From positions 316,001 through 380,000 of the forward strand of contig NZ_CP102267.1 of the NCBI RefSeq assembly GCF_025148125.1: a DNA stretch of 64,000 bases. Direction: 5' to 3'. This DNA comes from Blautia wexlerae DSM 19850 (lineage in GTDB: Bacteria; Bacillota; Clostridia; Lachnospirales; Lachnospiraceae). The notes beneath the pieces were generated by a model that saw only the letters and a program-made list of their open reading frames with translations, did not search any database and had not been told where the DNA came from. Both the position numbers and the translations under genes were made by a program. Shown here one piece after another: positions 35,502-50,055 of the stretch (its first letter is position 1; every line of letters starts with the position of its first letter).

Positions 35502-36689
35502 TTATTTCTCATCATACTGAGCCATATAATTGCTTACGCAGCGGTTGATCCTGTCAACCGGGTTGAGCAGATAGCTTACGGACTGATCATGATTAAGAGT
35601 ATCAATGATCAGGGCGATATATTTACTCATATCACAGGAGATGTAGTAATCTTTTGCAAGAAGCTCAGGAGACTGATAGATCAGGTTTGTAGTGAGCAGT
35701 TTGTCAAACACTCCTGCCTTATGAGCCTCATCAAATTTCTCGAGTCCGTTTGTAAACAGTCCGAAAGTAGAGCAGATATAAATTCTGCCTGCTCCTCTTT
35801 CCTTGAGGAGAGAAGAAATCTTAAGAACTGTATCACCGGAAGAAATCATATCATCGATCAGGATCATATCTTTGCCCTTAAGGTTTGGACCGAGGAATTC
35901 GTAAGCTGCGATCGGGTGACGTCCGTTGATTCTCTTGGAGTAATCCAGACGTTTGTAATACATACCCATATCAACACCAAGGATATTGGCAAGATAGATT
36001 GCGCGGTTCATGCTTCCCTCATCAGGGCTGATGATCATGAAATGATCGTTGTCGATGTGAAGTCCTTTCTCATGGTTGAGAAGAGCTTTGATAAACTGAT
36101 AGGATGGCTGTACAGTCTCAAATCCATGCAGAGGTGTTGCATTCTGCACGCGCGCGTCATGTGCGTCAAAAGTGATGATGTTTTCCACACCCATACTTAC
36201 AAGCTCCTGAAGTGCTGTTGCACAGTCCAGGGATTCTCTGCCGCTGCGGATATTCTGGCGGCTTTCGTACAGATAAGGCATGATCACGTTTACTCTGCGG
36301 GCTTTGCCGCCGATTGCGCCGATCACACGTTTCAGATCCTGAAAATGGTCATCAGGAGACATAAGATTCTCGTATGGTCCGATGCTGTAGGTAAGACTGT
36401 AGTTACATACATCAACCATCAGATAGATATCGTCACCACGTACAGATTCCATGATCGTACATTTCGCCTCACCGGAACCGAAACGTGCTGTCTGGACCGG
36501 TATCAGATAGGACTCTCTCTGATAACCCTCAAATGCAAAAGAATCAAGCTCTTCGTGGCTGCGCTCTTTACGCCACTGTATCAGCCATTCATTTACTTTT
36601 TCACCCAGATCCTTACAGCTGATCAGAGGGATCAGACCAAGTCTGCCCACCGGAAGTGTAGTTAAATCTTTAGTTGTTGCCTGTGCCAT
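35502..36689 (-). CDS. Ribose-phosphate pyrophosphokinase-like protein (long form)
   Basis: 395 residues, about 80 longer than typical Prs. Predicted to make PRPP from ribose-5-phosphate and ATP. PRPP loop MILIDDMISSGDTV (about 276-289), an N-terminal flag region GSGEAKCTIMESVRGDDIYL with the ATP-binding VRGDD motif, and FDAHDARVQN close to the catalytic loop. The extra length is at the ends. It is last in the leftward dnaD-dnaI-prs block, 4 nt after dnaI. Long Prs paralogues are frequent in Clostridia; whether it is the main Prs is unknown. Confidence 0.85.
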   Translation of the reverse strand: MAQATTKDLTTLPVGRLGLIPLISCKDLGEKVNEWLIQWRKERSHEELDSFAFEGYQRESYLIPVQTARFGSGEAKCTIMESVRGDDIYLMVDVCNYSLTYSIGPYENLMSPDDHFQDLKRVIGAIGGKARRVNVIMPYLYESRQNIRSGRESLDCATALQELVSMGVENIITFDAHDARVQNATPLHGFETVQPSYQFIKALLNHEKGLHIDNDHFMIISPDEGSMNRAIYLANILGVDMGMYYKRLDYSKRINGRHPIAAYEFLGPNLKGKDMILIDDMISSGDTVLKISSLLKERGAGRIYICSTFGLFTNGLEKFDEAHKAGVFDKLLTTNLIYQSPELLAKDYYISCDMSKYIALIIDTLNHDQSVSYLLNPVDRINRCVSNYMAQYDEK

Positions 36690-36692
36690 GTT

Positions 36693-37676
36693 TTATTTTC
36701 CTCCTAAAAAAATTTTCTGTATACGGATATCCTTTCCTTCCAGCTTCACCATACGGTAGTTGCTGGCGATTCTCGAAAAGGTTCGTTCGGAATAAGTATC
36801 CGAGAAATTTTCCAGTTTCAGATTTGTTGATATGATCGTAGACTTCCTGCGCATGATGCGTTCATTTATGCACAAAAACAACTGGGAAGAGACAAAGCTG
36901 TTTGTAAGTTCAGTTCCCAGGTCGTCGATGATCAGCAGATCGCTGTCAAATACAAATTCCTGTCCTTCTGTTTTATCTCTGGAGAATTTGGAGTCTGCCA
37001 GCAGTTCAAACAGATCAAATGCGGAAAAGTACATAACGCAATGTGCTGATTCCAGAAGATCATGAGCAATACAGTGAGAAAGAAAAGTCTTACCCACACC
37101 GGTATCACCGTAAAGAAACAGATTCTCAAAGGAACTGTCAAAATTTCTCACAAAACCTCTGGCAATATCATAAGCTCTCCGGGCCGTCTCTCTTTCTGTC
37201 AGTCCGGTAGCTTCGTTCTTCATTGTATCAGAATAATAATCAAAAGAAAAGTGGTCAAAGTTTTCTTTTTTGAGAATTTCTTTTAAATTGGACTGCGTAT
37301 AGAGCAGTTCTATCTCTGCTTTCTTAAAACAGGTACATTTTTGGCTTCCGACGTAACCGGTATCCTGACAGACCGGACACTTATATGGAAGTTCCAGATA
37401 ATTCTCCGGATATGAGTTACATACCAGCAGGGCATTGCGCTCCTGGGACAGAAGAGAGATTGCAGCTTTAAGGTCCTCAAGACCTGATGATTCTCCGCTT
37501 AAGAGTGCTCTTGCTTTTTTGGCGCTTAAGGTGGCAACCTCTTCATCTATTTCGTGGATGCGCGGGATTTTTTTATAAATCTCCTGAGTACGCTCCTCCA
37601 GAATACGTCTGTTCTGAGACTGGGTCTTGCTGTATTCCCGCATGATCGTATCATACTGATAATTCTGTAAAGGCAT
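36693..37676 (-). CDS. Helicase loader-like AAA+ ATPase (DnaC/DnaI family)
   Basis: 327 residues. N-terminal helical region with a zinc-like cluster CPVCQDTGY..SQKCTC (about 113-130), then the AAA+ core: Walker A LYGDTGVGKTFL (about 190-201), Walker B DLLIIDDLGTE, sensor I IISTNL and the arginine finger area SRIASNYRMV. Loads the DnaB-type replicative helicase. It lies 4 nt before the prs-like gene and 68 nt after dnaD, forming a replication-initiation unit downstream of a DnaA-box cluster. Confidence 0.92.
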   Translation of the reverse strand: MPLQNYQYDTIMREYSKTQSQNRRILEERTQEIYKKIPRIHEIDEEVATLSAKKARALLSGESSGLEDLKAAISLLSQERNALLVCNSYPENYLELPYKCPVCQDTGYVGSQKCTCFKKAEIELLYTQSNLKEILKKENFDHFSFDYYSDTMKNEATGLTERETARRAYDIARGFVRNFDSSFENLFLYGDTGVGKTFLSHCIAHDLLESAHCVMYFSAFDLFELLADSKFSRDKTEGQEFVFDSDLLIIDDLGTELTNSFVSSQLFLCINERIMRRKSTIISTNLKLENFSDTYSERTFSRIASNYRMVKLEGKDIRIQKIFLGGK

Positions 37677-37744
37677 GACTTCACACCCTTTCGTTTGTTT
37701 TTTTGTAGCTGTTCAGTGACTTTCAGACGATTATGTCACTGCCG

Positions 37745-38827
37745 TTACTGATTCAGTAATTTCTTTTCATATTCGTTAAAGTCGTACTGTCGCTGATGGA
37801 AATTGTTAAACCGGTTTGATGTAGCCGGTTTGGAAGCTGCTTTTCGCTGGGTATTCTTTTCCAGCTTCTGGCGCTGATGCTGAGCATCGAGGAGCCGGAC
37901 ATCTGCAAGTGTACGGACATTTTTATCTTTCCATCCGGAAAGGATTTTATCTGCATACTGGAAACTTGGCTGTCCGGTAGAGAGAACTGTACGGCTGCAG
38001 GCTTCCTGGATGATATCCATGGTAAAACCATAATCATTCAGCCAGGTGTTCATAAGAGAAATCTCTGTATCTACCGGATTTCGTCCGCTGATTCCCATTG
38101 ATTTAAAAATAGTAAAGTATTCTTTGGCATAACGGGAATTTGCCTCTTTTGCCATGGTGACAGTGGTGATTCCCTCATCTGCCCAGGCAAGAGCAACGGT
38201 TTCTATGTAACGCATACTCTTATGCCCGCGGCTGACACTGTATTCGATCAGGTACTCGATCAGATCAGGCGAGAATTTCAGCTCATCATAGAAAAACAGG
38301 ATCTTTTTCATCTCGGTAGGAGTGAGCGTTTTGCCGAGATACTGTTCTGCGATATAGAGGAGCTGTACGATCTCATCATTTTGCTTTAATTCTTTTACAC
38401 GGTCAGGAGACAGTGCAGTGGCTGATCTGGTGGTCTGCTTCACAGGCTGTGCCGGCGCAGAAGAAGTCTGGGGTTCTGTTTTTGTAACAGGGGCTGCCGA
38501 AACAGTTGTGTCGGAAGCAGCAGATTTTACAGGTGGTACATTCAATATGATATCTGCTATATCTTCGTTATTTCTGTAGGTTAAAGTAAGGAGTTTTTCT
38601 TTCTCCCAGTATTTCAGAGCGCGGATAATGTCACGTTCTGTACAGAAGAAATGATCAGCCATCTGCTCCAGACTGAAGGGTACAGAGGTGTCAGAAAGAA
38701 GCCTCAGAAGATAGATATATACTTTCACAAATTCTCCATTGGCCCCAGGCATATAGTTGTCTATGAAATTGTTGGTTAATACAGTTACTTCCGCATTGCG
38801 GGAATTCTGTAAAGTGATCATAGCCAT
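37745..38827 (-). CDS. dnaD: DnaD-domain replication initiation protein
   Basis: 360 residues from ATG 38827; the open frame runs on to 39052, but that part reads through a repeat and a promoter. An N-terminal winged helix (EVTVLTNNFIDNYMPGANG to about 100) and two DDBH2 domains (about 185-250 and 265-335), the second ending in the FQYADKILSGW motif. DnaD-like proteins help DnaA and the helicase loader at the origin. Its 5' UTR carries two matched hairpins. The exact class (DnaD or DnaB of Bacillus) is not decided by eye. Confidence 0.88.
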   Translation of the reverse strand: MAMITLQNSRNAEVTVLTNNFIDNYMPGANGEFVKVYIYLLRLLSDTSVPFSLEQMADHFFCTERDIIRALKYWEKEKLLTLTYRNNEDIADIILNVPPVKSAASDTTVSAAPVTKTEPQTSSAPAQPVKQTTRSATALSPDRVKELKQNDEIVQLLYIAEQYLGKTLTPTEMKKILFFYDELKFSPDLIEYLIEYSVSRGHKSMRYIETVALAWADEGITTVTMAKEANSRYAKEYFTIFKSMGISGRNPVDTEISLMNTWLNDYGFTMDIIQEACSRTVLSTGQPSFQYADKILSGWKDKNVRTLADVRLLDAQHQRQKLEKNTQRKAASKPATSNRFNNFHQRQYDFNEYEKKLLNQ

Positions 38828-38844: not shown

Positions 38845-38998
38845 CATAATAATAAGATGTTAGGGTCAAAAGGTATTTTGCCCCTAACCTGATATCCACG
38901 AATTGCTCCGCTGCAAAGCAGCTCCCACAATTCTCATAATAATAAGATGTCAGAGTAAAAAAAGATATTTTTCCTCTGACTTGATATCTATGAATTAT
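38845..38998 (-). repeat. Two 90-nt-spaced hairpin repeats in the dnaD leader
   Basis: Both copies start CATAATAATAAGATGT (38845 and 38935). Copy A stem is GTTAGGG (38859-38865) with CCCTAAC (38882-38888), extended by CAAAA/TTTTG; copy B stem is GTCAGAG (38949-38955) with CTCTGAC (38974-38980). Two stem positions differ between the copies and each change is matched on the other side. Both lie between the dnaD promoter and start codon, so they would be transcribed. Confidence 0.75.
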
Positions 38999-39022
38999 AG
39001 CACAACATTTTTTAAAAGAGAA
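38994..39022 (-). promoter_or_regulatory. Promoter of dnaD
   Basis: On the minus strand TATAAT (38999-38994) with TGC just before it (extended -10) and TTCTCT (39022-39017) at 17 nt. Transcription would start near 38987, giving a leader of about 160 nt. Confidence 0.6.
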
Positions 39023-39043
39023 TAGGGGATTTTTGTCGAAGAT

Positions 39044-39255
39044 TTCATCCACATTTGAATGTGGATAATGTGGATAATGTGGAAAGGTGAAATATGGTAT
39101 ATATTATTGGAAACCTGAAAAATGTTGAATTTCAGGGAAAAACGGAGTATTACGGGGACGAATAATGTCGAATTATGTTAAGTGATTTATGCACATATAC
39201 ATCCACATATGCAGGCAGATGAAAATGTGTATAACGATGTGGAAAATGTGGATAA
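39044..39255. promoter_or_regulatory. DnaA-box cluster upstream of dnaD
   Basis: Five 9-mers fit the consensus TTATNCACA on one strand or the other: TGTGGATAA at 39060-39068, 39069-39077 and 39247-39255, TGTGTATAA at 39226-39234 and TTATGCACA at 39187-39195. Near matches are TGTGGAAAG 39078-39086, TGTGGAAAA 39238-39246, TCATCCACA 39044-39052 and ACATCCACA 39199-39207. Three boxes are set in tandem with no spacing at 39060-39086 and two at 39238-39255. The region is AT-rich and lies just upstream of the dnaD promoter, in a 640-nt gap without genes. Confidence 0.8.
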
Positions 39256-39390: not shown

Positions 39391-39434
39391 AAAAAACAGG
39401 ACAATTCTGAAAAATTATTTTCCGAATTGTCCTG
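39391..39434 (-). terminator. Terminator of murC
   Basis: On the minus strand CAGGACAATTC (39434-39424) pairs with GAATTGTCCTG (39407-39397), followed by TTTTTT (39396-39391). It ends the murC transcript before the DnaA-box region. Confidence 0.85.
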
Positions 39435-39468
39435 TGTAAATTGCTGATATTTATGTCAGGCAGAAACA

Positions 39469-40848
39469 TTATTTACCCAGCAGATGCTCCCCGATATTTA
39501 CAACATCTCCGGCTCCCATGGTGATGAGCAGATCACCCTCCTGGCAGTTGGAGAGCAGATAACTCTCAATCTCATCAAAGGTAGGGAAATACTCGCAGGG
39601 AGTTCCCAGTTCCTGAATACGCTTCTGCAGATCTTCAGAAGAAATTCCCAGAGTATCGGTTTCTCTTGCTGCATAAATATCCGCAACTACCACATGATCT
39701 GCCAGGCTGAGTGCTTTGGCAAACTCCGGAAGCAGAGCTTTGGTACGGGTATATGTATGTGGCTGGAATACACACCATAATTTCTTATGGGGATAATTGT
39801 GTGCGGCATGAAGAGTTGCTTCAATCTCTGTAGGATGATGTGCATAATCGTCTACGATCGTAACCCCTGCAACCTCTCCTTTATACTGGAAACGGCGGTC
39901 TGTACCTGTGAAGCTTCCAAGTCCCTTGATGATCACTTCTTCGGAAAGACCAAGAAGATGACCGAGGGCAATTGCTGCCAGTGCATTGGAAACATTGTGG
40001 ATGCCCGGCACTTTCAGATAATAGCTGCCAACCTTAACGCCATTGCGCAGAACAGAGAAGGAAGCATGTCCATATTTGTCATAAGTGATATCTGCTGCCT
40101 GATAATCTGCATCATGTTCCAGACCATAAGTGATCACATTACATGGAAGATCCCGGATGATATCTTCATATTTCGGAGTATCTGCATTGATGATCAGTGT
40201 ACCGTCAGCAGGAAGAAGCTCTGCAAAGCGGCGGAAGGAATGACGGATATCGTCAATATCCTTAAAGAAATCCAGATGGTCTGCATCCATATTCAGGATA
40301 ATACTGATCTTCGGGAAAAAGCTCAGAAAGCTGTTTGTGTATTCGCAGGCTTCTGTGACAAAAGTCTCAGAATTGCCTACGCGGATGTTTCCGCCGATAG
40401 CAGGAAGAATACCTCCCACACTGATGGTCGGGTCACAGTCTCCTGCAAGAAGAATGTGAGATACCATAGATGTTGTGGTTGTTTTTCCATGAGTTCCGGA
40501 AATGGCAACAGGAGTGTCATAATTCCTCATAATCTGTCCGAGAAGCTCTGCACGTGTGAGCATTGGAAGTCCTTTTTCCTTTGCACAGGCAAATTCCGGG
40601 TTGTCAGGATGGATAGCTGCGGTATATACCACAACATCTACGTCATCGGTAATGTTTGTGGCACGCTGTCCGTAATAGATGGTGGCTCCCTTTTTCTCCA
40701 GTGCCTGCGTAAGAGGACTGGATTTGGAATCGGAACCGGAAATGACAAAATCCTCGCCGAGAAGAATCTCGGCCAGTCCGCTCATGCTGATGCCGCCGAT
40801 ACCGATAAAATGTATATGAAGTGGTTTGTGAAAATCTATCTGATACAT
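39469..40848 (-). CDS. murC: UDP-N-acetylmuramate--L-alanine ligase
   Basis: 459 residues. Adds L-Ala to UDP-MurNAc in the cytoplasm. Motifs: GIGGISMSGLAEIL (dinucleotide-like fold at 16-29), the ATP loop AISGTHGKTTTTSM (about 114-127), DADHLDFFKDIDDI and DDYAHHPTEIEATL. Normal length and order of the three Mur domains. Expressed alone from its own promoter. Confidence 0.96.
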   Translation of the reverse strand: MYQIDFHKPLHIHFIGIGGISMSGLAEILLGEDFVISGSDSKSSPLTQALEKKGATIYYGQRATNITDDVDVVVYTAAIHPDNPEFACAKEKGLPMLTRAELLGQIMRNYDTPVAISGTHGKTTTTSMVSHILLAGDCDPTISVGGILPAIGGNIRVGNSETFVTEACEYTNSFLSFFPKISIILNMDADHLDFFKDIDDIRHSFRRFAELLPADGTLIINADTPKYEDIIRDLPCNVITYGLEHDADYQAADITYDKYGHASFSVLRNGVKVGSYYLKVPGIHNVSNALAAIALGHLLGLSEEVIIKGLGSFTGTDRRFQYKGEVAGVTIVDDYAHHPTEIEATLHAAHNYPHKKLWCVFQPHTYTRTKALLPEFAKALSLADHVVVADIYAARETDTLGISSEDLQKRIQELGTPCEYFPTFDEIESYLLSNCQEGDLLITMGAGDVVNIGEHLLGK

Positions 40849-49785: not shown

Positions 49786-50049
49786 TTTTTGCGCGCCGCA
49801 CTTCGGAATGGTCCCACAGACGTTACCTCTACAGTTAACTCAGCCCAGGCACCCTTACGGCACACAAGAGCTTCTGCTTAGTGCTGCTACATTCCTGTCC
49901 TGACACGGTTCACAGATTCCTGTTGCGTAAGACCCAAACGTCAACGCCACTTATAGAGGGCAGCTCCACAGGATACAAGCCTCGGATTGGCATCACCCCT
50001 GCTGTAGCGGATTGCAGGTACAGGGCACCGCTATCTCCCCGGCTGCGCA
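49786..50049 (-). ncRNA. ffs: Large bacterial signal recognition particle RNA
   Basis: About 265 nt on the minus strand. The SRP helix-8 core is clear: GTGTCAGGACAGGAATGTAG followed by CAGCAC at 49886-49913, in which ACA/TGT closes a GGAA tetraloop and CAGG faces AGCAG. A 5' GCGCAGCC and 3' GGCGCGC can close the Alu-side stem. It binds Ffh for co-translational targeting to the membrane. A consensus promoter on the minus strand lies at 50056-50084 and the terminator at 49710. Exact 5' and 3' ends are estimates. Confidence 0.88.
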
Positions 50050-50055
50050 TTTCTG

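Follow-up and report, generated by a model that had tools for sequence, protein, structure and literature searches.

The gap between murC and dnaD in Blautia wexlerae is, on our reading of the sequence, probably a DnaA-operated, bridged control region of the dnaD-dnaI-prs operon. It holds two tandem arrays of DnaA-type boxes which, across the sampled Lachnospiraceae, keep helical phase both with each other and with the predicted dnaD promoter. The boxes, their conservation and orientation, both phasings in the sampled loci and the lack of boxes in very short gaps are features of the DNA as it stands. All positions refer to the window, the whole 64,000-nucleotide stretch that was analysed (316001-380000 of a one-contig genome); the two-part phased layout and the overlap with the murC terminator are seen solely through the relatives.

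Five exact copies of TTATNCACA lie within 196 bp of the gap, at 39060-39255 (starting at 39060, 39069, 39226 and 39247 on the reverse strand and at 39187 on the forward strand), accompanied by two near-boxes with one mismatch each to TTATNCACA (39045, forward; 39238, reverse) and a third with two mismatches at 39078-39086. The initial annotation had described five such 9-mers, some of them in spacer-free tandems, and both descriptions stand: all five were recovered, and zero-spaced abutting boxes occur at each end of the cluster. As to its concern that the motif might be as dense elsewhere, the local density is far above that of the genome as a whole, which has 299 boxes in 4,685,728 bp (Poisson p ~2.5e-12 for five boxes in 196 bp, a value for a single stretch of that length, uncorrected for the ~24,000 such stretches in the genome). 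The reversed control pattern has 130 genome matches, as opposed to the 299 of TTATNCACA.

The predicted distal array (39226-39255, reverse strand, in the dnaD reading direction) consists of TTATCCACA at 39247-39255, TTTTCCACA at 39238-39246 and TTATACACA at 39226-39234. It is joined by an exactly matching inverted box, TTATGCACA, at 39187-39195 on the forward strand (offset +60) and by TGTGGAT at 39201-39207 on the reverse strand, the pairing arm of a distal box stem. The predicted proximal array (39060-39086, reverse strand) has zero spacers throughout, with CTTTCCACA at 39078-39086 and TTATCCACA at both 39069-39077 and 39060-39068, and an inverted near-box with one mismatch, TCATCCACA, stands behind it at 39045-39053 on the forward strand. 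Besides the dnaD region, the genome holds a single further exact zero-spaced tandem, at 4472960, which sits between two convergent genes, one of them resembling V-type ATPase subunit D and the other coding for a secreted protein, as judged by eye. Another copy of TTATGCACA lies inside murC (39839-39847), in the codons for YAHHPTEI, and several genera have it too, some 379-380 bp ahead of the first array box; since the array begins at the murC stop, this copy is probably a coding coincidence.

Downstream of the boxes and on the reverse strand lie dnaD (37745-38827, ATG at 38827), encoding a DnaD-domain helicase-loading protein, a gene for a DnaI-like AAA+ ATPase that is a probable helicase loader (36693-37676) and a prs-like phosphoribosylpyrophosphate synthetase gene (35502-36689), in the order that had been proposed from the start. 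The upstream neighbour, murC (39469-40848, reverse strand), is co-directional with dnaD. The extended -10 promoter first suggested for dnaD also held up as a promoter-like element at 38994-39022 (reverse strand): TTCTCT, 17 bp and (TGC)TATAAT, with TG one base ahead of the hexamer. That hexamer (38994-38999) is 69 bp away from where the last proximal box starts. A generic promoter scan leaves the element out of its output because its -35 has 3/6 consensus bases. The family promoter consensus, itself partly selected for by our search rule, reads TT at -35, about 17 bp and TG-C-TATAAT.

The compensating hairpins that the initial annotation placed in front of dnaD survive in part. The predicted dnaD 5'-UTR (38859-38989, reverse strand) contains two hairpins, at 38949-38980 and at 38859-38888, with a further stem in the middle, and the two hairpin stems, GTCAGAG/CTCTGAC versus GTTAGGG/CCCTAAC, show two compensated base-pair differences. 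However, these hairpins do not seem to belong to the operator and appear instead to be a dispersed Clostridiales-1-like repeat: within the 150 bases compared, such a stem was seen solely in this genome and its nearest relatives, and among the closest of these two loci have a single stem and one has none. The match to the Clostridiales-1 RNA (RF01699), at 38890-38989, scores 38.8 bits against a gathering score of 48; it spans the model from first to last position, yet takes up 100 bp versus 166 model positions. Apart from this match, an Rfam scan of the region gave weak unrelated RNA matches at an inverted repeat. Genome-wide there are 11 RF01699 matches at E 0.001, of which four reach the gathering score, and some of the other genomic matches have its middle stem and the beginning of hairpin 2 as well. 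At least three of these 11 repeats lie directly behind a TATAAT-like site, as 5'-UTR elements. Elsewhere in the window, at 49789-50050, there is a large bacterial SRP RNA (RF01854, 171.6 bits).

The boxes proved to be widely shared with relatives, a point that the initial annotation had left to be checked. Upstream DNA of dnaD was taken from 144 regions, comprising 45 species of the genus, 89 other genera of the family (out of 148 with a dnaD match, mostly the better-matching ones) and 10 of 12 named loci, which partly duplicate genus species; two genus loci at contig ends were analysed from shorter stretches. At least two exact boxes, on either strand, stand within 480 bp of dnaD in 37/45 genus species, 62/89 other genera and 9/10 named loci, and no exact box was found over the same distance in eight genus species, 12 other genera and one named locus. 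Across all 144 regions, the stretch from -100 to -400 relative to dnaD has 0.9-1.1 exact boxes per 100 bp, compared with 0.03-0.06 from -700 to -1000.

The cluster before dnaD is conserved inside the family and absent from the other families sampled. A class-wide sample, the best-scoring 29 of 140 other genomes with a match, included 26 other-family loci; none had a box in the 700 bp upstream of dnaD (one locus was cut by 29 bases) or murC within up to 1.5 kb ahead of it, and all three Lachnospiraceae members had both murC and boxes. A separate class-wide search for an exact tandem with a third box 50-80 bp further on found it in 2 of 196 genomes. Within Lachnospiraceae, murC is the upstream neighbour of dnaD in 142 of the 144 regions (one exception being a cut contig), and synteny cannot separate the two genes there.

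Two tandems, sought 50-230 bp apart, were definable in 86 of the 144 regions (43/89 family, 34/45 genus and 9/10 named). The typical order is a distal tandem (two copies of TTATCCACA with zero spacer), a proximal tandem of two to three boxes and the extended -10 promoter of dnaD-dnaI-prs, with both tandems read in the dnaD direction. The first two distal boxes are present by definition of the tandem; a third distal box with at least 7/9 matches is found at offset +21 in 64/86 regions. Inverted partners of the distal tandem, again with at least 7/9 matches, occur at +48 in 62/86 and at +60 in 28/86, and 21/86 regions have an inverted box on the opposite strand, 33 bp from the first proximal box.

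The first box begins 0-3 bases from the murC stop in 57/89 family genera. Moreover, a TGTGGA[T/A] motif near +48 can form a stem with distal box 2 and is followed by a T-run in 65/76 two-array regions (37/43 family, 28/33 genus), and on this ground the distal tandem likely forms the 5' arm of the murC terminator in most relatives. In the window, the TGTGGAT arm at 39201-39207 has no T-run after it, and a separate inverted repeat at 39396-39435, which runs into T when read along murC, is the likely murC terminator. The terminator pairing is also what would be expected if the motif served some other DNA-binding protein and its distal copy were merely the murC terminator stem, a reading that we consider improbable. 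The zero spacing, unusual for DnaA, agrees with it; on the other hand, distal box 1 lies outside the stem and is still conserved, further copies of the motif stand at the proximal array and upstream of hpf, and the +21 box varies chiefly at DnaA-box variable positions. Among 77 copies of that box, the four bases of TTAT are kept in 70, 69, 63 and 70 and those of CACA in 47, 62, 66 and 61, with position 5 free (A28, C24, G15, T10), a pattern of variation that is as expected for a DnaA-box signature. The genome's own dnaA region has TTATCCACA before dnaA and TTATACACA behind it; its exact boxes have starts 10-11 bp from one another (spacers of 1-2 bp), and it contains no exact zero-spaced pair. 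The E. coli protein is described as preferring a double box with 2-3 bp spacing (PMC11317965); the tandems studied here, at 0 bp, fall outside this definition, and the +21 box alone follows after 3 bp.

The distances between the two arrays fall into discrete classes. Taken once per genus (n=43) they are 77-78, 86-88, 97-99, 122, 131-133, 140-146, 152-158, 165-168, 176 and 189 bp, with a best period of 11.2 and R 0.70, compared with a maximum of 0.49 among 300 jittered sets; the choice of box end shifts R over 0.59-0.70 and the period over 11.1-11.2. Collapsing the data on a MurC tree left 46 events in 40 clades, with a period of 11.25 and R 0.69, a value reached by 0/3000 jittered sets. These jitter controls hold each distance near its value and treat clades as independent, in a scheme without an indel-bias model. 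The named loci, which partly duplicate genus species, were left out of the family, genus and tree-collapsed phase tests and of the promoter test below. The genus set alone, which holds few distinct distances, has its best period near 12, and all exact-box pairs before dnaD carry a weaker 11-bp signal (R 0.44 at 11.1; p 0.043 for unique distances). Sister pairs on the MurC tree lend weak support (16 pairs differing by at least 4 bp, mean cosine 0.29 at 11 bp). An 11-bp register was also sought among the weak boxes lying between the arrays; the family set has a slight excess at phase 0-1, and the genus set has one at another phase.

A second periodicity links the proximal array to the promoter, taken in these tests as predicted by consensus. 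The last proximal box lies 48, 58-59, 66-69, 76-80, 87-88 or 97-99 bp from the -10, and over 41 events in 35 clades the period is 10.0 with R 0.86, as high as in 0/3000 jittered sets; this set keeps distances of 30-110 bp and excludes outliers at 119-486 bp. Three-box runs in the family stand 48, 58-59, 67-69 and 78-79 bp from the -10, with one far outlier, and thus step by ten, from which it follows that the steps do not reflect a 9-bp box register. The length of the gap matters as well. No box was found in 11/11 murC-dnaD gaps shorter than 100 bp, while at least two boxes occur in 6/15 gaps of 100-200 bp and in 103/116 gaps of 200 bp or more; the absence from the shortest gaps is partly a length effect. 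Overall, 19/142 gaps have no exact box, and eight of these are at least 100 bp long and have a promoter-like -10. In 16 of 20 box-less species, no box was found in the 1.7-3.7 kb analysed upstream (for the remainder, just 214 bp ahead of murC were available in one, and the other three had no murC start that could be placed), and so the array has not been relocated to the front of murC.

These observations bear on a reading in which the boxes form a titration or DnaA-reactivation site similar to datA or DARS, holding DnaA or changing its nucleotide, with the position at dnaD reflecting gene dosage solely. We think this unlikely. Clustered consensus boxes ~354 kb from oriC in this genome would suit such a site, as would a second cluster, before hpf, that lacks promoter phase; at dnaD, however, the boxes are phased to the promoter, very short gaps are box-free with no move to the front of murC in 16/20 box-less species, and 26 other-family genomes are box-free within 700 bp of dnaD. 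The circuit that the initial annotation preferred, in which DnaA controls its own helper genes, draws support from family conservation, promoter phase and the lack of boxes in gaps too short to hold a promoter, whereas the titration that it mentioned beside this circuit leaves the promoter phase unexplained when taken alone.

The cluster before hpf emerged from the exact tandem TTATCCACATTATCCACA, which is present in 94/150 family genomes and recurs, besides dnaD, before hpf, beside a gene judged by eye to be secA and at some other places. The gene hpf, for a ribosome hibernation factor, was identified for one genome and elsewhere by similarity. The tandems upstream of hpf are often next to the secA-like gene. 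Boxes are most frequent at -200 to -400 in a set of 50 hpf regions picked by match rank. The box-run distances before hpf are 41-45, 52-55, 62-64, 73-76, 86-88 and 97 bp, with a period of 11.1 and R 0.84 (n=40; p about 3e-4 for unique distances), in a set that joins the 50 rank-chosen regions with 20 partly chosen for a known tandem. The hpf arrays are not phased to a promoter, and in the B. wexlerae genome hpf has no exact box within 800 bp. Tandem DnaA boxes also occur in three genera near genes that by eye encode a Fur/PerR-type regulator and a rubredoxin-containing protein.

That the cluster is a second replication origin or unwinding site seems highly improbable to us. Two box groups with an AT-rich stretch between them do recall bipartite origins; against this, dnaA and a six-box cluster behind it lie at genome position 1, and the cumulative GC skew of the window rises, apart from a single, slightly negative step over 36001-38000, a stretch whose genes run in reverse. 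No DnaA-trio-like run of three or more is present in the region, a weak result given that the crude pattern used scored none in the genome's own dnaA-dnaN gap too. The earlier statement that no dnaA is nearby and that this is probably not the main oriC is supported, with dnaA ~354 kb from the box cluster. A GC-skew turn would be expected at the main origin and the window has none; by window skew and genome position alike, the cluster has neither such a turn nor a dnaA-dnaN neighbourhood, the two points that the initial annotation had suggested comparing.

Returning to the DnaA-operated control region, we infer from this sequence record the identity of the bound protein, the bridging of the arrays and the transcriptional response. 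DnaA would bind the proximal tandem, whose last box is centred ~55-105 bp upstream of the transcription start (placed 12 bp downstream of the first -10 base), and also the distal tandem, 77-189 bp farther upstream and in the same reading direction. Helical phase is preserved in both distances, and for this reason the DnaA molecules bound at the two arrays would most likely be connected along a single face of the helix, through a loop or a filament between them; in place of the loop, DnaA might form a filament built of 11-bp units. The bridged complex would then have a constant helical orientation to RNA polymerase, and DnaA dose or nucleotide state would set the supply of DnaD and DnaI. As to the sign of control, we lean slightly towards activation over repression, because the array lies upstream of the -35 and the promoter is not covered. 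Feedback of the DnaD protein onto the putative DnaA operator is also possible by analogy, given that B. subtilis DnaD inhibits cooperative DnaA binding, according to the title of a cited work.

Grouped TTATNCACA boxes upstream of genes, some of them for DNA replication, are a likeness to DnaA-bound regions described for B. subtilis, including dnaA autoregulation, and to the double boxes of E. coli (PMC4447404, PMC11317965, PMC8203912). In contrast to known DnaA-regulated promoters, the region described here belongs to a DnaD-DnaI loader operon, has zero-spaced boxes and carries two phased tandems, the distal one inside the likely murC terminator in most relatives. With datA, DARS1 and DARS2, which according to a review are absent in B. 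subtilis (PMC13220808), it shares the character of a non-origin DnaA-box cluster, and differs in being phased to a promoter. DnaA complexes that need helical phase are a feature shared with origins of the Thermotoga maritima type, where a 5 bp insertion is reported to have reduced the reaction and a 10 bp insertion did not (PMC10316083); unlike such phase-dependent origins, the dnaD region has no dnaA neighbour or visible unwinding element and is linked to a promoter.

The layout also recalls araCBAD, with its direct-repeat sites and upstream loop. Distant in-phase operators are shared with lac loop control, and the period between our arrays is near the helical repeat of 11.08 fitted to in vivo lac looping in one data set, that of another being 11.60 (PMC1762422). 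The difference from both systems is that the bridging factor would be the initiator protein, and that bridging is read here from evolution rather than from mutants. Among the papers listed in literature searches over titles and abstracts, mostly outside subscription journals, none describes a DnaA operator before dnaD, and the term dnaD does not occur in a 2021 review of DnaA as a transcription factor.

We regard as rather doubtful a composite terminator-operator, in which the tandem at the murC stop would be both the murC terminator stem and a DnaA operator, with bridging setting promoter activity as well as murC read-through into dnaD-dnaI. Were it true, wall synthesis (murC), initiator level and helicase-loader supply would be joined in one loop across much of the family. 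Natural spacer variants make the question of a DnaA loop or filament directly testable, and the phase record across genera offers an evolutionary reading of the in vivo helical repeat of DNA, near 11.2 bp between the arrays. DnaA controls its own gene and some others; if it also governed the helicase-loader genes, a feed-forward or feedback loop would be closed at the step right after origin opening, in a common family of gut bacteria.
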